From positions 1 to 46,529 of the IMG/VR virus record IMGVR_UViG_3300033145_000867: a DNA stretch of 46,529 nt; one strand, given 5' to 3'. Each line of letters begins with the position of its first letter. Position 1 is the stretch's first letter. Positions 29,131-41,914 of this stretch are shown in pieces. Source of the DNA: a virus. The notes beneath the pieces were generated by a model. It was not told where the DNA came from. It made no database searches and saw nothing but the letters and a program-made list of their open reading frames with translations. A program made the translations under genes and the position numbers.

Positions 29131-29523
29131 ATGTCAATAGAATCACATAGAAAAGCATGTTTTAAATATGACCATTCCGAAAAAGGTAAAAAGAAAAAGC
29201 AAGAATGGCGTAGTAAATATAAATCAGATTCAGATGCCAAATACTATCAAAACAATAAAGAGAAACTTAAAAAACAAGTCGCTGAATATAAGAAAACGAT
29301 GAATGGTAAATTGACAGTTCTAAGACATATGTATAAACGACATAAACAAATGAACACGAAAAAAATGTTTAATAACCCATTTAATAAATCTGAAATAATA
29401 GACTGGCATCATATCGATAATTGTTATGTGGTTGCAATACCACGTGATTTGCATAGACATTTTCAGGGTAAATTCCACCGAGATAATTTAATGGGGATAG
29501 TTAAACAAATATATTTAGTATAG
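29131..29523 (+). CDS. HNH homing endonuclease-like protein (130 aa)
   Basis: A basic, Lys-rich N-terminal arm leads to IIDWHHIDNCYVVAIP, RDLHRHFQG and FHRDNLMGIV, which supply the His pair, central His and last His of an HNH-like core. This resembles stand-alone homing nucleases inserted in tailed virus modules. It breaks an otherwise structural gene run. Confidence 0.7.
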   Translation: MSIESHRKACFKYDHSEKGKKKKQEWRSKYKSDSDAKYYQNNKEKLKKQVAEYKKTMNGKLTVLRHMYKRHKQMNTKKMFNNPFNKSEIIDWHHIDNCYVVAIPRDLHRHFQGKFHRDNLMGIVKQIYLV

Positions 29524-33170: not shown

Positions 33171-33204
33171 GGGTTAAGGTTTCCTTGCCTCTTTTCCTTA
33201 ACCC
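33171..33204. terminator. Bidirectional stem-loop between converging operons
   Basis: GGGTTAAGG and CCTTAACCC form a perfect 9-bp stem around a 16-nt loop, between the plus operon (ends 33167) and the minus operon (ends 33218). It should stop transcripts from both sides. Confidence 0.75.
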
Positions 33205-33217
33205 AATTTATCTCCGA

Positions 33218-33373
33218 CTATGGAGGATTTTTTGTTTCGTTGTTTAAGAATAAAATTGCTATATATGCAATGCTAAAACCAAGTACGAAAATTAACAAGG
33301 CTGCTATAATAGGATGAATGTATACTTTATCAACTAATTCTGTCGCTGTTTCACTGACACATCTAAGAATCAT
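33218..33373 (-). CDS. Single-span membrane protein (51 aa)
   Basis: MILRCVSETATELVDKVYIH and one hydrophobic span (IIAALLIFVLGFSIAYIAILF), then a polar end. Only 1 bp from the glycosyltransferase gene. It is the last gene of the minus operon; a second lysis or anchor peptide is possible. Confidence 0.6.
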   Translation of the reverse strand: MILRCVSETATELVDKVYIHPIIAALLIFVLGFSIAYIAILFLNNETKNPP

Positions 33374-33374
33374 T

Positions 33375-34427
33375 TTACCAATCTCTTAATTCTGTAAGTC
33401 TTTCTTGTGATACTATTTTCTCATCTTTTATTAGAACGGCTCTTATTGCATTGATGTATATCTTCAGTGTAAGTTTTAACACCTTCCACTCAGGGTATAT
33501 TTGCCATGCACGTAGACCTCTGAACAGTACCCACTTGAAATGCCACAGGGCTTTTAATTTTGAACCATGTATTCCTTTTTCTCCGACTAGCAGCCACAAG
33601 ATTTCGTAGTCCTGATTATCCTTGGCTCGTTTCTGGTCAAACTTTAAATGAAGAGTTGGAATATCCATGACATACATTTCCATGCCTCTAGTTCTTACTA
33701 TTTTTCCCAAGTAATTATCTTCTTGAGAACTGAGCTTTGAAATTTCCTGTCTCTGTGTAAAGTTTAGTTTGTAATCATTTAGAACAAGTAGATTAGCCGT
33801 AGGACACCCAAGATTATAGCCGTAGCGGTCAAAGTTACCTCTCTCGAATCCACTCCACCACTTATGCCAAAGCTCTTTTCGTTTATCAGTTCCATCTCTA
33901 CAGTCCATCCATCCTTGTAGCCCATATATGTTAGTCAGCAAGGGGATTTTTCCAGAGGCGTGTAAATCTCTAGCCATACCAAATAAATTACGGATATAAT
34001 CTTTGGGCAAAACAATATCTGAATCAAGCCAAAAAAGTGTCTTGTATTTAGCGTGTTGCATCCCTTCCAGGCGAGCCTTACCAAGCTTACCTGTCTCAGT
34101 GATAATTTTATATGGTATCTGGTCAAGTTCATCCTCTAGCATAGAAAATTCAATGCAACTAAGAGTACCATCGGTGCTCTCTTTATCAACGAATATTATT
34201 TCAAGTTTTACATATGGTGGGAAAGCCTTTGGTATTGACTCAAGACATTTATACAAAGTATCTACACAGTTCCAAGTAGGAATAATAATTGTACATCCAC
34301 CACTATAAAATCTTCTTTGTAATTTGAATCCATCTCCGTTTAAATCTTCACGGCAATCATAACAAAGATAAACACACTCGCCTTTCTTGCCACATCTTGG
34401 GCATACTTTATATTTATTATTGTACAT
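33375..34427 (-). CDS. GT2 glycosyltransferase with zinc ribbon (350 aa)
   Basis: Residues about 8-30 are a zinc ribbon (CPRCGKKGECVYLCYDC). Then a GT-A fold starts at CTIIIPTWNCVDTL and includes IIFVDKESTDGTL and WLDSDIVLP, whose D-S-D is the nucleotide-sugar metal motif. ATG 34427 is preferred to TTG 34436. It should add a sugar to a membrane or virion glycan. Confidence 0.85.
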   Translation of the reverse strand: MYNNKYKVCPRCGKKGECVYLCYDCREDLNGDGFKLQRRFYSGGCTIIIPTWNCVDTLYKCLESIPKAFPPYVKLEIIFVDKESTDGTLSCIEFSMLEDELDQIPYKIITETGKLGKARLEGMQHAKYKTLFWLDSDIVLPKDYIRNLFGMARDLHASGKIPLLTNIYGLQGWMDCRDGTDKRKELWHKWWSGFERGNFDRYGYNLGCPTANLLVLNDYKLNFTQRQEISKLSSQEDNYLGKIVRTRGMEMYVMDIPTLHLKFDQKRAKDNQDYEILWLLVGEKGIHGSKLKALWHFKWVLFRGLRAWQIYPEWKVLKLTLKIYINAIRAVLIKDEKIVSQERLTELRDW

Positions 34428-36330
34428 CTTTTGCAATCTCCAATACAGGTTTCAATGCTAGTTGTCTAACATTTTTGGACTTTAAATTCTTCTTGATAAA
34501 AAATTTGAAAACTTCTTTAGTACGCCATACTTCTTCAATTTTGTAAGCTACTTCTATCATATTCAATCTACCAGCTACTAAGCTTTCTAATCCCAAATCA
34601 GAATACAAAGCTTTAAATTTTGAACTGTATGCAATAGGTATCACTGGAACTCCTTGCTGCAAACTGGAGATAGAAGCGTGCATTCTAAGGGAGACATTCA
34701 ATTGGCTACCTCCCAATACTAATCTATGCATAATAGGAGTACCATTAGGCAAAATAGAAACCTTCTTGTTACCTGTTTTACGTTCTATTTCTTTTATAAG
34801 AAGACCCTCTCCAGAACGGTAATCTATATTTTGATTATCAGAATGTGCCATTAGATAAACAGGCAACCCAGTAATTTTATTCAAAGCGTTTGCAATATAT
34901 GCAAGCTTATCAGTGAACTCATCCTTTGTATCACAATACTTTCGCCACAAATCAGAGACAACAAGGGTTGTGAATTTAGAACGGTGCTCGTAACTAGATT
35001 CGTTATGAATTGGCAAAAAGGCTAAGTCATAACACCTGCTGATATTTTTTAATCCAAGCTTCTGCATCTCTTGCATACTAAAATCATCACGACAATAAAT
35101 CCTGTCAGCTTTTGAAAACGCCCACTTGGCAAACGGTTTTAGATAGCATGGAAATTGCCCCATAGTTTGACTAACAAGGTAAAGCTTTTTCCCTGCTCGT
35201 TTTATGTTCCTGAAATCCCAGTAAGTAAAGAGCATTCTCATAGTCCACAAGAGTCGATTCCTGAGTATTGCTTTACCTACAAAGTGGTCTCCACCTAAGT
35301 ACACTACAGTTTGACAATCTCGAATTTGTTTTTCTAAGTTAGACTGACCTCTCCATCTAATACTCTTGATGTATCCAAGTAGCTTGTGTCCATCCAGTAA
35401 GTCCCAGGCACTATGAAATCCATAGTCTAGTTTGTCAGTAATCTCTTTCGGCAGAAGTCTTTCCATAACTTCTTTTCCTGTATCGCCTTTCTCATATTCA
35501 AGTAGTGTGAATCCAACATCAGTTTCTTTCGAAAGATACTCAATAAAATTCTGTGTCATAATCAGAGTACCGTTGTTACTAACTGTCATGCCTCCCATGA
35601 TGGCAATCTTATTCGGGCAATGTTCTTTACGTTCAATGTTGTAAAGACTATCAAAAAATTCCTGTCCTTTCTTGGTGACTGTTACAACCTTAGATGTACC
35701 TTTTTTATTCTCAAGAAACGCTGGACATTCCCAATAATCTCCAAGAATTAAATCGCCCTGTGGATGTAATTTACAAAATGCACATTGTTGTTTCTGATTA
35801 GTTCCTTGAATATAATCTTTTATTAATTTGCTTTTATAATCAAATTCAAGACCGTCTTTTGTAATCACGCATAATTTAGTAGAACCTCTCCAGCCATCAG
35901 TCTTGTCTCGAAATTTAACAGTCTTTGCGTTTTTGTGGTATTTATCTATGTAGCTGTCAAAAATATCTTGTCTTATAACACCATGACAACGCAATTCAAC
36001 ATACAGAATACTATCTTTATTTTTGAATCTTCTTTTCATTGCTTCTATTGTGCAAGGTAATCCAACAAATAAAATAGGTCTTTTAGAATACTTCATAATT
36101 TCCAATACATATATACTTAATCTAGCTTGTAAATATTTAGAACCACGCATTTTTTTTACTCTATCTAAATTTCGTGTAATTATGTAGAAAGGTTCTAACT
36201 CAGGCATAACTACTCCTACTACCAATCCTCCTCTGTTTATCGTTTTTTTGGCAAGCTCTAAAAATATTCCACCTGATGAACTCTCAAATAAGTTCTCTTC
36301 ATCCTTACTCCAGCATATAAAATTCTTCAT
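34417..36330 (-). CDS. FrhB-like / polysaccharide pyruvyl transferase fusion (637 aa)
   Basis: Residues 1-230 resemble the FrhB/FdhB C-terminal domain: SSGGIFLELAKK, LPCTIEAMKRRF, CHGVIRQDIF and CAFCKLHPQGDLILGDYW. The usual N-terminal ferredoxin cluster is missing. Residues 235-637 fit polysaccharide pyruvyl transferase: MGGMTVSNNGT, VVYLGGDHFVGKA, IYCRDDFSMQEMQKLG, RLVLGGSQLNVSLRMHAS. The enzyme would add a pyruvate ketal to a glycan using phosphoenolpyruvate. The same fusion is known from cellular polysaccharide clusters. It overlaps the GT gene by 11 bp and the next GT by 4 bp. Confidence 0.85.
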   Translation of the reverse strand: MKNFICWSKDEENLFESSSGGIFLELAKKTINRGGLVVGVVMPELEPFYIITRNLDRVKKMRGSKYLQARLSIYVLEIMKYSKRPILFVGLPCTIEAMKRRFKNKDSILYVELRCHGVIRQDIFDSYIDKYHKNAKTVKFRDKTDGWRGSTKLCVITKDGLEFDYKSKLIKDYIQGTNQKQQCAFCKLHPQGDLILGDYWECPAFLENKKGTSKVVTVTKKGQEFFDSLYNIERKEHCPNKIAIMGGMTVSNNGTLIMTQNFIEYLSKETDVGFTLLEYEKGDTGKEVMERLLPKEITDKLDYGFHSAWDLLDGHKLLGYIKSIRWRGQSNLEKQIRDCQTVVYLGGDHFVGKAILRNRLLWTMRMLFTYWDFRNIKRAGKKLYLVSQTMGQFPCYLKPFAKWAFSKADRIYCRDDFSMQEMQKLGLKNISRCYDLAFLPIHNESSYEHRSKFTTLVVSDLWRKYCDTKDEFTDKLAYIANALNKITGLPVYLMAHSDNQNIDYRSGEGLLIKEIERKTGNKKVSILPNGTPIMHRLVLGGSQLNVSLRMHASISSLQQGVPVIPIAYSSKFKALYSDLGLESLVAGRLNMIEVAYKIEEVWRTKEVFKFFIKKNLKSKNVRQLALKPVLEIAKDVQ

Positions 36331-37181
36331 CTTTGATACATCTCCTTTAATTTAAATATAATTCTCCATATTTTTTCTCTAACTATAAAGCCCATTAGGA
36401 ATAGGGAAACTAACAGTGAAGATTTAATTACGTTGAATGCGAAACCCTTTGCACCAAGATAGGTCAGCATGTCTTTGCCATAGAGCCTATAGAGGTCGAG
36501 AACTTCAGCTACCTTTATGTAGTAGAACTTCTTCTCATTGGCGTTGTCTCGATTCATAGTCATAAGAGGTTTTTGTACTACGAAAATTCTGTAGCTAAGT
36601 TTTGCTAATTTCAAAGCTATGTCATACTCATGCATAGACCTAAGATTTGTATCAAAACCACCGATGGCTTTCAATACTATACTTCTCAAAAAATATGATG
36701 AAGTACATGACATATTAAAACTCTTGAGTAAATCTTCATACTCTGGTAGAAGTGCAGGTTTGTCTATGTAGGTAGAAGTAGCATCGTGAACTTCCATTTG
36801 ACAGCTTACTAATGCTGCATCATATAGCTCTGCATAGAATAATTGTTGCTCAATCTTGTTGGGTTTCCAATAATCATCATCATCCAGCATAGCTACATAC
36901 TTTCCATTCGATTGTCCGAGACCAAAATTTCTAGCACGTTGAACATCACCATACATAGTAGCTTTTTCTACTACATTTGAATCTTGTACCCAATGCACTA
37001 TTCTATCATCTTTTGAACGAAATTTGCGTACAAGGTCTTTTGTCTCTTGTAATCCTTTCCCGTCAATGACTAGGATTTGTAGATTCTTGTAGGTTTGATT
37101 GACTACACTGCTCAAAGCCCTGGAAAGGTAGTCAGGTCTATCGTAGGTAGTTAGAATTACAGTAACAAGTATGTTATCCAT
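36327..37181 (-). CDS. GT2 glycosyltransferase (284 aa)
   Basis: ILVTVILTTYDRPDYLSRAL, ILVIDGKGLQETKDLV and VAMLDDDDYWKP are textbook GT2 motifs, the last giving the DxD. A hydrophobic C-terminal stretch (SSLLVSLFLMGFIVREKI) suggests membrane association. ATG 37181 follows GGGG. Works with the pyruvyl transferase beside it. Confidence 0.85.
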   Translation of the reverse strand: MDNILVTVILTTYDRPDYLSRALSSVVNQTYKNLQILVIDGKGLQETKDLVRKFRSKDDRIVHWVQDSNVVEKATMYGDVQRARNFGLGQSNGKYVAMLDDDDYWKPNKIEQQLFYAELYDAALVSCQMEVHDATSTYIDKPALLPEYEDLLKSFNMSCTSSYFLRSIVLKAIGGFDTNLRSMHEYDIALKLAKLSYRIFVVQKPLMTMNRDNANEKKFYYIKVAEVLDLYRLYGKDMLTYLGAKGFAFNVIKSSLLVSLFLMGFIVREKIWRIIFKLKEMYQR

Positions 37182-37398
37182 CAATTTGACCCCAACATCT
37201 TCGACATACACCATCTCTTGCTTCGTATTCTTTTCGACTGATTATCCTGTCACAATTTCTACAAAAATATGTTGCTTTCTTTTCAACTTTCCATACCCAA
37301 TAGCATTCACGCCAATGATATGATACTATACGAGTACCCATCACACTACTTACTCTTTTACCAAATATCCTTGCTAAGATAAACATTATAGGTTTCAT
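37174..37398 (-). CDS. Zinc-ribbon protein (74 aa)
   Basis: YFCRNCDRIISRKEYEAR followed by VCRRCWGQ gives the two knuckles; the N-terminal half is basic and hydrophobic. It overlaps the glycosyltransferase by 8 bp and may regulate or anchor the cassette. Unknown function. Confidence 0.6.
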   Translation of the reverse strand: MKPIMFILARIFGKRVSSVMGTRIVSYHWRECYWVWKVEKKATYFCRNCDRIISRKEYEARDGVCRRCWGQIDG

Positions 37399-37414: not shown

Positions 37415-37606
37415 TCATTCTTCTGTCTCACCTTTCTTGTTAATAAAACGATAACCATAGTATCTAAGTTGTTTTTTCATCCATTCAATTCGTATGGCAT
37501 CATTTTTTTCTGCATAGGTTTCATCTTCATACTCTATATTGCTAGTGTTAGGGTCGCCGTCATCCAATGATATTTCTACACCATCAACTATTCTTTTATT
37601 TTTCAT
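37415..37606 (-). CDS. Hypothetical acidic protein (63 aa)
   Basis: A polar, acidic N-terminal half (DDGDPNTSNIEYEDE) and a basic C-terminal half. GGTGATGTAGA precedes the ATG. No family recognised. Confidence 0.55.
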   Translation of the reverse strand: MKNKRIVDGVEISLDDGDPNTSNIEYEDETYAEKNDAIRIEWMKKQLRYYGYRFINKKGETEE

Positions 37607-37881
37607 TCTACATCACCGTTCTCTTCTATCTTTTTATCCTCATATGGTACTAAATATCTTCGTCTTATCTCTTCTTCACATTCATGCAACTCACTAAGAA
37701 AATCAGCCATACCAGCATAATTGTTTCTTCTAGTAAAATTTTCGATATACTCTTTGAATAATTTGAATATGAAATAGTTTAAGTTGCCCCTTATTCCACC
37801 TGCTATCATAAGCTCAATTGTTAATTTTTCTGCTATTCTATTAAATACTATTCTTGCTGCAAGTTCTCTTATATATGGCAT
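37603..37881 (-). CDS. Phage conserved protein, DUF6899-like (92 aa)
   Basis: The C-terminal pattern (LNYFIFKLF, ELHECEEEIRRRYLVPYEDK and IEENGDV) fits a small conserved phage family I recall as DUF6899. The YEDxKIxxNGDV end is its hallmark. Function is unknown. Confidence 0.65.
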   Translation of the reverse strand: MPYIRELAARIVFNRIAEKLTIELMIAGGIRGNLNYFIFKLFKEYIENFTRRNNYAGMADFLSELHECEEEIRRRYLVPYEDKKIEENGDVE

Positions 37882-38271: not shown

Positions 38272-38706
38272 CTACAACTTAGCAAGGTATCTTTCAAGCT
38301 CCTTTTTGTTAGTAAATATTTTCGTTGCTAATTCTACAACCCAAGGATGTGCTGCATACTTTCTTGTCACAACATAAACAGGGAGTCGAAGAACTCTCGA
38401 TGCATAGAATACTTCCATTGGTGTACCAATCCTAACATCATTTAGTATAGCTACAATACCATCACTTTTTCTAATTTTTTCTAAATCATCCTCAACTATA
38501 CTGTATGAGCTTCTTGTGGATAAGTAACTCCGTTGTTTTCTACTGCAATCTACATATGAATCCAATATCAGCATTTCCTCTGCTCTTGCTGGATTATCAT
38601 AGAACGGATTATCCAAATTTACGTTATACTTTTTCTCTATCCTGAGTTCCCACTTGCGTACCTTCTTTCGAGTTAAAAAATTATGGGCAAGGTATAGCGT
38701 TATCAT
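38272..38706 (-). CDS. Nucleoside 2-deoxyribosyltransferase-like protein (144 aa)
   Basis: ITLYLAHNFLTRK, LDNPFYDNPA, IVEDDLEKIRKSDGIVAIL and IGTPMEVFYA follow the nucleoside 2-deoxyribosyltransferase fold. GTPMEVFYA holds the Glu expected for the catalytic nucleophile. Such enzymes exchange bases on deoxynucleosides. Activity is likely but unproven here. Confidence 0.65.
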   Translation of the reverse strand: MITLYLAHNFLTRKKVRKWELRIEKKYNVNLDNPFYDNPARAEEMLILDSYVDCSRKQRSYLSTRSSYSIVEDDLEKIRKSDGIVAILNDVRIGTPMEVFYASRVLRLPVYVVTRKYAAHPWVVELATKIFTNKKELERYLAKL

Positions 38707-39175: not shown

Positions 39176-40970
39176 CTTTTAACTCCTCCAATTTAATCCC
39201 ATCTCCATGAGCCTCTTCCCAATTTCTACCAAACTTGATTGCAACATCAACAGGCACAGATAAATTTTCGCCAGCTTTCATCATACTAGATTTTATTATA
39301 TCATAACAGCATTGTGCATATTTAATTGGGCAAGAAACTAATACTTCATCGTGCACCGTAGATATTATTCTAGCATCGAACTCTTTTAATCGTGAATACA
39401 TAGTTATCATAGCCATTTTGATTAAGTCAGCAGCAGAGCCTTGTATAATGGCGTTTGTCGCACTCCGAATCTCACCACCTTGGTCATAGGAGTCCTTTGC
39501 CATAAAGTTGTCAGAACGCCTTCTTTTACGCCCTGAGAGAGTTTCCACAAATCCGAAGTCTATGAAGTTTCTTTCAGATTCAGCCCAAAACTCCTTAACT
39601 CCAGAGTATGTATCAAAGTATCTATCTATATATCGTTGTGCCTCTTCCACAGAAACCTTTATCTTTTTTGCTAATGTTTTGCCACCCATTCCATAAACCA
39701 ATCCAAAGTTTACTGTCTTTGCGTTATACCTGGAACATCCACAGGCATCCGCAGTTTGTTGATGTATATCTTTGTTCTCGTTATAAGCCTTGATGAGATT
39801 CGGGTCATGGGAGAAGTGAGCAAGTACACGTAGTTCTATCTGTGAATAATCTGCTCCAATAAGAATTTCTCCGTTATCTGGAATGATAGCTTCTCTAATT
39901 CTTATATCATCAGGGTCATCGTCATTAGTACGGGGAATATTCTGCATATTTGGTCTACTGCTGCTAAATCGCCCACTTGTAGTCCCTGCTTGATTAAAGT
40001 TAGCATGGATTTTTCCAGTCATAGTCTTAAAATCCCATTCAGTGGGTGTTAGAGCAGGTATAAAGGTACTCATAATCTTACTATACTTACGATACTCCAA
40101 AAGAGTCTTAGCTACGGCATCAGTCTCAGCGTACTTTTCAAGAACTTCTTTATCCATAGATGGTTTTCCAGTTTTGGCACTCTGTTTTATAACTGGCATT
40201 TGTCGCTTATCAATGAAGTACTTTTTTAGCTGTTGCGTGCTACCGAAATTAATGTCTTCGCCCATTTCTACTCTTAATTTAGTTTCAGAAAGCTCTATTA
40301 TACTGTTACATTTGTTCTTAATTCCTATAACTTTGTCTACATCTATGTTAATCCCGTGAATATGCATATCAGCAATTACATTTAGCAAGGGGCGTTCTAT
40401 TTTTCCATACACTTCAGCAGGTCGTTTGTCCTGTGCTAGTTTGTTAACTAAGTAAAAAAATAACTTTAGTGTATAGTAAGCATCATCTGCTCCGTATTTC
40501 CATTTTTCTTTAGGTGCATCTGCAAATGATATACGCTTTTGTCCTGTACCACAAAGTTCTTTGAGTTCTGTCATTGTATAATGAAAGTATCTTTTTACAA
40601 GTCCTTTCAATCCGTGTCGTATGTTCTCATTCACAAGATTAGCCATTAGTAGGGTATCGTGAATATTGCGAGCATTGTAAACATTAATTCCAAAGTTATG
40701 CAGCACATGCATATCAAAAGCTGAGTTATGAAAAACTACTGTACAATCGTAGAGTATCACATCTAATAAATGTTGAGCTTCCTCTATAGACATATTATCT
40801 AATACATTATCTCTAACTGGAATGTAGTACGATTTGTCGTCAAATGCGAGGCTAAATCCTACCATAGTTTTGTCAATCAAAGAAACAGTCTCCGTATCTA
40901 TAGCAACAATTTCTGCATGAAGGAGAGCCACCATAAATTTTGCATCCCAAGAAGTTATTAATTTTCTCAT
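39159..40970 (-). CDS. Family A DNA polymerase with 3'-5' exonuclease (603 aa)
   Basis: Exonuclease motifs: VAIDTETVS, VFHNSAFDMHVL and YGADDAYYT. Polymerase motifs: A, GADYSQIELRVLAH; B, RYNAKTVNFGLVYGMG; C, STVHDEVLVS. All catalytic residues are present; there is no 5'-3' nuclease domain, as usual for phage PolA. It replicates the genome, with the AEP primase-helicase. Its ATG overlaps the stop of the cysteine synthase gene. Cellular archaea do not normally carry family A polymerases. Confidence 0.95.
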   Translation of the reverse strand: MRKLITSWDAKFMVALLHAEIVAIDTETVSLIDKTMVGFSLAFDDKSYYIPVRDNVLDNMSIEEAQHLLDVILYDCTVVFHNSAFDMHVLHNFGINVYNARNIHDTLLMANLVNENIRHGLKGLVKRYFHYTMTELKELCGTGQKRISFADAPKEKWKYGADDAYYTLKLFFYLVNKLAQDKRPAEVYGKIERPLLNVIADMHIHGINIDVDKVIGIKNKCNSIIELSETKLRVEMGEDINFGSTQQLKKYFIDKRQMPVIKQSAKTGKPSMDKEVLEKYAETDAVAKTLLEYRKYSKIMSTFIPALTPTEWDFKTMTGKIHANFNQAGTTSGRFSSSRPNMQNIPRTNDDDPDDIRIREAIIPDNGEILIGADYSQIELRVLAHFSHDPNLIKAYNENKDIHQQTADACGCSRYNAKTVNFGLVYGMGGKTLAKKIKVSVEEAQRYIDRYFDTYSGVKEFWAESERNFIDFGFVETLSGRKRRRSDNFMAKDSYDQGGEIRSATNAIIQGSAADLIKMAMITMYSRLKEFDARIISTVHDEVLVSCPIKYAQCCYDIIKSSMMKAGENLSVPVDVAIKFGRNWEEAHGDGIKLEELKVDSKK

Positions 40971-41914
40971 GCGAATACCCCAGTTGATAAGTACCTGTCT
41001 CCTCTATCTGCAAGGATAACTACAATAGTACCACTTTTTAATTCTTTAGCTACCTTGATAGCTTGACTCATTGCTGCACCACTGGACATGCCACAGAATA
41101 TGCCCTCTACTTTTGCCAGCTTACGGGTCATTTCAAAAGCCTCTTTGTCCGTAGCAAAAAGTGTTTCATTTATATATCTTGGGTTGTGTATTTTTGGCAC
41201 TATCTGAAACTGTAAATTTTTTAGCCCTTGAATTTTACTGTTTTTTTGTGGGGATACGGCTATTATTTTTGTTCTGTATCTCTCTATATGTAATACTGTA
41301 CGATAAGTAAATTTAAACCATGCACTACATCCACGTATTGTGCCAGTAGTTCCATAAGCCGATACAAAATGTGTTGGATTCATATAAGGGGAGTGCCCAG
41401 TCCAATAGCATATTTCTCCAAGTTGTTTTGCTATTTCTGGAGCAGTTTCCATATAGTGTGTTTTCCAATTGTCAGGATTGTCGAATTGATTAGGATTATA
41501 ATGGTGTACCCATCCATGTGTTTTCATCATTTCTGCAACTGTTGTAATTGCTAAATCAGTAGCACCATCAACTTCGATTAACCTTGCACCATATGCCCGT
41601 AGGATTTTCTTCCTCTCTTCACTCACAGCTTTTGGCATAACAAGAGTACACTTATACTTGAGTGCAGCACAAACCATAGCTAAACCTATTCCAGTATTTC
41701 CACTTGTCGCTTCCAGTACTTCCATGCCTGGTTTTAGCTCTCCTCTTTCTATCGCTTGCTGAATCATGTATTTGGCAACTCTATCTTTTACACTCCCACC
41801 TGGATTACTTCCTTCCAGCTTTGCAAAAATTCTAACCTCTCCTGATTTCCAGAGATTTTCGATTTCCACAAGGGGCGTGTTTCCTATTGCGTTTAGTATG
41901 CTCGTGCTAATCAC
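40967..41914 (-). CDS. cysK: Cysteine synthase
   Basis: Fold type II PLP enzyme: GSVKDRVAKYM holds the PLP lysine, TSGNTGIGLAM the substrate loop, YGTTGTIRG the phosphate loop, GMSSGAAMSQA and DRGDRYLST the C-terminal sites. The 315-residue length is normal and no motif is broken. It would make cysteine from O-acetylserine (or a related acceptor) and sulfide. GTG start with GGAG overlapping it. It lies upstream of the polymerase in an ATGA-coupled pair, and just downstream of two tRNA-like hairpins. A cysteine synthase in a tailed virus is unusual. Confidence 0.9.
   Translation of the reverse strand: MISTSILNAIGNTPLVEIENLWKSGEVRIFAKLEGSNPGGSVKDRVAKYMIQQAIERGELKPGMEVLEATSGNTGIGLAMVCAALKYKCTLVMPKAVSEERKKILRAYGARLIEVDGATDLAITTVAEMMKTHGWVHHYNPNQFDNPDNWKTHYMETAPEIAKQLGEICYWTGHSPYMNPTHFVSAYGTTGTIRGCSAWFKFTYRTVLHIERYRTKIIAVSPQKNSKIQGLKNLQFQIVPKIHNPRYINETLFATDKEAFEMTRKLAKVEGIFCGMSSGAAMSQAIKVAKELKSGTIVVILADRGDRYLSTGVFA

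Follow-up and report, generated by a model that had tools for sequence, protein, structure and literature searches.

What does a phage gain from a protein that joins an FrhB-like domain to a polysaccharide pyruvyl transferase? The question is raised by a cassette of three leftward (− strand) genes in a 46,529-nucleotide stretch of viral DNA (the window), which is positions 1 to 46,529 of the IMG/VR record IMGVR_UViG_3300033145_000867 and the complete length of that virus contig. Open reading frame (ORF) calling gave, overlapping end to end, a GT2 glycosyltransferase gene, a gene for the FrhB-like and pyruvyl transferase fusion, and a second GT2 gene. We propose, at a probability of roughly 0.55, that the phage uses the cassette to edit glycans of the host envelope, which would change receptors on the cell surface.

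The first cassette gene (36327–37214, −, 295 aa; the probable start at 37181 gives 284 aa) overlaps the fusion gene (34417–36330, −, 637 aa, with the ribosome-binding site AAAGGAG) by 4 bp. The fusion gene overlaps the third gene (33375–34436, −, 353 aa) by 11 or 20 bp according to the start chosen, an ATG at 34427 being preferred for its better ribosome-binding site (GGAG upstream) than that of the start at 34436. An earlier note on this DNA had described a three-gene unit at 34417–37181; the three genes, their overlaps and their domains were confirmed, but the third gene (33375–34427/34436) lies outside that interval. Because the open frame of the fusion recurs in three other phages, the 637-aa frame is not a sequencing or frameshift artefact. 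The cassette ORFs are genuine protein-coding genes, and their domain matches are not due to chance. DNA-level and single-protein searches found no close copies of the cassette.

The C-terminal part of the fusion (residues 240–637; 34420–35613, −) is a pyruvyl transferase domain of the RMH/CsaB-like subtype. PF04230 was matched at residues 327–570 with 90 bits against a Pfam cut-off of 25.3, a profile of the domain matched the ketal-pyruvyl transferase Pvg1p (5ax7, E 8e-4), and the closest NCBIfam model was CsaB (5.8e-12), although the score of 45.5 bits is below the cut-off of 213.1 for the CsaB equivalog TIGR03609. The phosphoenolpyruvate (PEP) site has been mapped in CsaB and Pvg1p, and in CsaB the PEP-binding residues are R148, R306/H308 and K328 (PMC10435577). 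It was found that the equivalent viral residues R414, R549, H551 and K571 are present in all four viral fusion proteins, with an H-to-K spacing of 20 in both the viral proteins and CsaB, and that R414 and H551 are invariant over 12 diverse PF04230 members. The worry that the fusion might lack pyruvyl transferase active-site residues is thereby removed. The viral domain thus shares the PF04230 domain and the R/R/H/K set of the PEP site with CsaB and Pvg1p, but it differs from them in that the similarity is distant (profile-level) and an FrhB domain is attached. From these comparisons, the identity of the C-terminal domain as a polysaccharide pyruvyl transferase, predicted to be PEP-dependent, is well supported.

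The N-terminal part (residues 1–237; 35620–36330, −) resembles FrhB/FdhB proteins, with PF04422 matched at residues 5–70 (26.2 bits, cut-off 22) and PF04432 at residues 86–229 (48 bits, cut-off 23.3). An N-terminal 2[4Fe-4S] ferredoxin module is common, but not universal, in the FrhB/FdhB family; several cellular homologues have it, it was found in L098, L144, L147, L148, L149 and L160, and it is absent from all four viral fusions. The earlier note was therefore right that the iron-sulfur start is missing, whereas its suggestion that a redox role might have been lost is weakened by an internal site: C93, C115, C183 and C186 are invariant among 20 aligned FrhB-like sequences, which leaves room for a redox role. 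An SGG motif, K65-Y66 and D198-x-W200 are also kept. A profile of the domain matched the F420-reducing enzymes 8riu, 9r51, 3zfs and 8rja, with which the viral cysteines align, and we take these four cysteines to be the ligands of an internal [4Fe-4S] cluster. Judged by this conservation, binding of flavin (FAD) and of one [4Fe-4S] cluster has probably been retained in the viral domain, which probably performs or supports a redox step. FrhB, the F420H2-oxidase domain of Fsr and plant HCAR (5dqr), which belongs to the same FrhB/FdhB family, share the FrhB-type fold and the four conserved cysteines with the viral fusion; the latter differs in having neither a ferredoxin module nor a partner and in being joined to a pyruvyl transferase, and its use of F420 is only putative.

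An AlphaFold2 model of the fusion made with four aligned rows was unusable (pLDDT 45), whereas 20 rows gave a pLDDT of 79.3 and a pTM of 0.66, with low confidence near residues 304–329. In Foldseek searches, the predicted structure matched FrhB (9r51_B, E 1e-10, about 257 columns); its other PDB fold matches were GT-B-fold enzymes, and its best match in the viral library was a WcaK-like pyruvyl transferase of a giant virus.

Full-length homologues of the fusion, 37–39% identical, were found in three phages (G010, G013 and G014) that are related to the window phage by their capsid, terminase and portal proteins. Their gene order is fusion, GT4, GT2, whereas the window carries a GT2 gene ahead of the fusion instead. 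A profile of the four fusions was searched against 399, 395 and 369 genomes of three phyla (about 1,150 bacterial genomes) without a full-length match, a sparse sampling that leaves absence from cells unproven. What the same searches did return were FrhB domains, pyruvyl transferases encoded separately and fusions of a different type, and in many bacterial clusters FrhB genes lie beside or are fused to pyruvyl transferases. The likeness to cellular fusions that had been pointed out thus holds for the pair of domains, adjacent or fused, in polysaccharide clusters, but not for the subtype: the cellular fusions examined are of the S/T-[FY]-H-G subtype and have the N-terminal 2[4Fe-4S] module where scanned, whereas the viral ones are RMH/CsaB-like and have no such module. 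In a tree of pyruvyl transferases found adjacent to FrhB or fused with it, all 10 cellular fusions fell across a 100/100 branch from the viral ones, with the separate genes L090, L096, L099 and L179 on the viral side; the tree does not settle whether the viral group is a clade relative to the incomplete L179 gene. Since the cellular fusions, with their different pyruvyl transferase subtype, lie across this branch, the viral fusion looks to have arisen independently of them. Descent from the cellular fusions was considered and is unsupported by the tree.

Two larger viral contigs, L140 (G015) and L142 (G017), carry separate FrhB genes with the ferredoxin module. That of L142 adjoins a pyruvyl transferase whose subtype is the cellular one (SYHG), and both contigs represent other viral acquisitions of the pair.

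Both genes that flank the fusion encode GT2 enzymes, as shown by PF00535 and a DxD motif. The first has 78.8 bits against a cut-off of 23.3 and the DDD motif AMLDDDDYW; its closest NCBIfam models are of the TuaG/EpsE type, under their cut-offs, and it has one possible C-terminal hydrophobic segment. The second has 64.8 bits against the same cut-off and the DSD motif WLDSDIV, and its homologues (36–39% identity) are the last gene of the cassettes in G010, G013 and G014. GtrB-like PHROG matches of the two proteins (E 3e-8 and 1e-6) span the GT2 core only, and no protein with multiple transmembrane segments, as a GtrABC system would include, was found among the three cassette genes.

The setting of the cassette is that of a phage. 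Terminase, portal, tape measure and primase were recognised by PHROG matches, DNA polymerase A was clear in Pfam, and the major head protein was recognised weakly. The contig ends share 114 identical bases. The relatives G009 and G819 likewise terminate in 114 identical bases, a recurrence that points to an overlap left by the assembly of a circular or circularly permuted genome and not to a true terminal repeat; the contig closes under either reading of its ends. By its gene content and ends, the window is a complete, circularly closing genome of a tailed bacterial phage. The cassette is the downstream end of a leftward operon that includes the DNA polymerase and converges on the rightward structural operon. 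Host contamination, which the earlier note had weighed together with a lack of such cassettes in related viruses, was rejected: the contig is circularly closed, the cassette has phage modules to either side of it, and it recurs, fusion included, in three related phages. Its claim of a viral glycan-pyruvylation cassette gains support from the complete phage genome, from the active-site residues that are kept and from this conservation. Shine-Dalgarno-like signals in the window are well above background, which we take to argue against a Bacteroidota host; they name no host.

Evidence on function also comes from the position of the cassette in an exchangeable cargo slot. We defined the slot as the region from conserved small genes to the convergent structural operon. 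One of these genes (38272–38706, −, 144 aa; nucleoside 2-deoxyribosyltransferase-like, weak PF05014) has a homologue of 46–71% identity in each of the 11 relatives, always to the same side of the slot. The other (37603–37881, −, 92 aa), usually also present, has a homologue immediately upstream of what fills the slot in nine of the 11, the exceptions being G007, with a match at another position, and L192, with none among the matches listed. Relatives were found by capsid, terminase or flanking-gene queries and by the fusion itself; L198, the remaining flanking-gene match, has a different gene order and was left out of the count.

In every phage in which this region could be read, 12 with the window included, the slot holds one of three glycan-modifying sets, with four phages each. 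The pyruvylation set is in the window, G010, G013 and G014, a count that is biased upward because G013 and G014 were found only via the fusion (the window, G010 and the others came from neutral queries). A LicD protein, a nucleotidylyltransferase (cytidylyltransferase) and a cupin occupy the slot in G004, G005, G007 and G009. A hexapeptide acyltransferase with a GT2 or GT4 and sugar-modifying enzymes, including a WbuX-like amidotransferase and a UDP-GlcNAc 3-dehydrogenase-like protein, occupies it in L187, L188, L190 and L192; the family capsid protein was found in three of these four, L192 being a fragment placed by its flanking genes only. None of the 12 phages had an empty slot or a slot with two sets, and profiles of the cargo families found no copies outside the slot except one LicD-like gene in G819 (L203:17248–17919). 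In L188, a GT2 46% identical to that of the first cassette gene lies next to an acetyltransferase, indicating that genes are shuffled between cassette types. A zinc-finger/HNH-like ORF of 141 aa lies inside the G010 cassette (L119:13699–14124), and L188 and L192 have similar ORFs upstream of their slots; these are possibly homing endonucleases that aid slot exchange.

Three glycan chemistries in one place, of which no empty example was seen, point to selection for changing a glycan and not for one product. A precedent is the LicD/IspD insertion of 'Flandersviridae' gut phages, a syntenic family in which some members carry an inserted LicD-family enzyme; the authors proposed that it blocks superinfection (PMC8008677). 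That family, however, has one cargo that is present or absent, whereas three alternative cargos and no empty slot were found here, and the LicD of the window family has a TagD/HldE-like nucleotidylyltransferase and a cupin as partners, unlike that of 'Flandersviridae'.

In the mechanism that we propose, the two cytosolic GT2s would add at least one sugar to a glycan precursor during infection, most likely a host lipid-linked envelope polymer, and the C-terminal domain of the fusion would then place a PEP-derived pyruvyl ketal on a terminal sugar, which would thereby gain a negative charge. The altered surface would no longer match the receptor of competing or sister phages, so that superinfection and adsorption to doomed cells or debris would be reduced; related phages may reach the same end via phospho-substituents (the LicD set) or acylation (the hexapeptide set). 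The ketal chemistry, the host envelope as target and receptor change as the benefit are what we infer from the genes and the slot, and alteration of the host surface, as the earlier note had it, stands as the best reading. Because the LicD set has no glycosyltransferase, it must act on a glycan that the cell already has, and this makes the host envelope a likelier target than a phage protein. Furthermore, csaB mutants of Bacillus anthracis are phage-resistant and CsaB pyruvylation affects adsorption (PMC9703825), and O-antigen acetylation and glucosylation by phages block superinfection (PMC11436027). Like the serotype conversion systems GtrABC of P22/Sf6 and the D3 O-acetylase, the cassette encodes phage enzymes predicted to change a receptor glycan. 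It differs from them in having no GtrA flippase or GtrB/GtrC pair and no recognised integrase, in a pyruvyl group in place of glucosyl or acetyl, and in a slot that switches chemistries within one family.

Several observations weigh against this proposal. No flippase, polymerase or GtrA-like protein was found in the cassette, which must therefore borrow a host pathway, and there is no SLH or S-layer context around it. No integrase was recognised among the window proteins scanned (some small ORFs lay outside the scan), so lysogenic conversion, the classical setting of such genes, is not evident; the family is tailed and apparently non-integrating. When 785 genomes sampled from two phyla were searched with a major capsid protein profile, no relative was found, a result that proves little alone.

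The ketal may not be the final product. Pyruvyl transfer could be followed by FrhB-dependent reduction, the product then being a carboxyethyl (lactyl) ether or a sugar with some other redox modification. The four invariant cysteines of the internal cluster and the frequent bacterial pairing, in which the two activities appear linked, would allow this. We consider such a product unlikely, since CsaB-type enzymes form ketals without redox chemistry, no electron-donor gene was seen alongside the fusion, the ferredoxin module is absent, and a literature search found no tie of these proteins to lactyl ethers. It is rather improbable that the pyruvylated glycan is placed on phage tail or capsid proteins, where it would protect virions or tune adhesion: the slot lies next to the 3′ end of the structural operon, and the GT2s are soluble with no clear membrane anchor besides the one hydrophobic segment, but the cassette is transcribed opposite to the structural genes, within the replication-side operon, and the alternative LicD set could not begin a protein glycan for want of a glycosyltransferase. 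It is quite improbable, too, that the fusion is a single-chain redox-coupled enzyme installing a pyruvate-derived group that hosts do not normally make (for example, a carboxyethyl ether); if it were, infected cells would carry a phage-specific surface mark.

The earlier note had also linked the cassette to S-layer anchoring. SLH proteins are anchored through pyruvylation by CsaB, which also controls phage sensitivity (PMC9703825, PMC10435577), and CsaB is the closest NCBIfam model, so the cassette could manipulate how S-layer or wall proteins are anchored where the host has SLH domains bound to a pyruvylated wall polymer. This is very doubtful, given 45.5 of 213.1 bits, far under the equivalog cut-off, and unrelated chemistries in the slot of relatives. 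That the cargo is neutral or decaying, made up of glycan genes gained horizontally that do nothing for the phage, would fit the high turnover of slot content but is most improbable in view of full-length frames, active-site residues conserved at 37–39% identity and no empty slot in 12 phages.

Around the cassette, an inverted repeat (GGGTTAAGG...CCTTAACCC, 33171–33204) lies between the convergent structural (+) and cassette (−) units, with a second terminator-like stem nearby at 33211–33226 (+); a terminator scan of this region gave no signal above chance. Directly downstream of the cassette, a 51-aa ORF (33218–33373, −) has one strong hydrophobic segment and could be a membrane partner or unrelated. 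Just upstream, a small zinc-ribbon-like ORF with CxxC pairs (37174–37398, −, 74 aa) overlaps the start of the first cassette gene by 8 bp and had no significant family match in the Pfam scan. Farther away, a PALP-family (cysteine-synthase-like) gene (40967–41914, −; phrog_11528) adjoins the DNA polymerase gene and has homologues of 58–62% identity at other positions in G004, G007 and G009, an unexplained mobile metabolic gene of this phage family. In the tail region, a small basic ORF (29131–29523, +) is HNH-like and has relatives at unrelated positions in G008, G010 and G014, and PDB searches with two neighbouring tail-region proteins gave no useful match.

The locus had been put forward as an undescribed viral system. 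Pyruvyl transferases in viruses were already known, from WcaK-like examples in giant viruses and from one in an operon of an Eggerthella prophage (PMC8778435), but the viral fusion family and the exchangeable slot are new; otherwise, the cassette is a variant of phage glycan conversion. Literature searches found no paper combining pyruvyl transferase with F420 hydrogenase or FrhB, or with phage auxiliary metabolism. In bacterial polysaccharide clusters, FrhB-like proteins occur next to pyruvyl transferases, and the fusion would offer a compact way to learn what they do there. Serotype conversion has been described chiefly in temperate phages, with a single chemistry in each case, whereas here, in a fixed slot of a family with no recognised integrase, cassettes for pyruvylation, phospho-substitution and acylation replace one another. 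This pattern suggests that editing of the host surface during infection is important enough for these phages to keep it throughout, yet specific enough that the chemistry is swapped.

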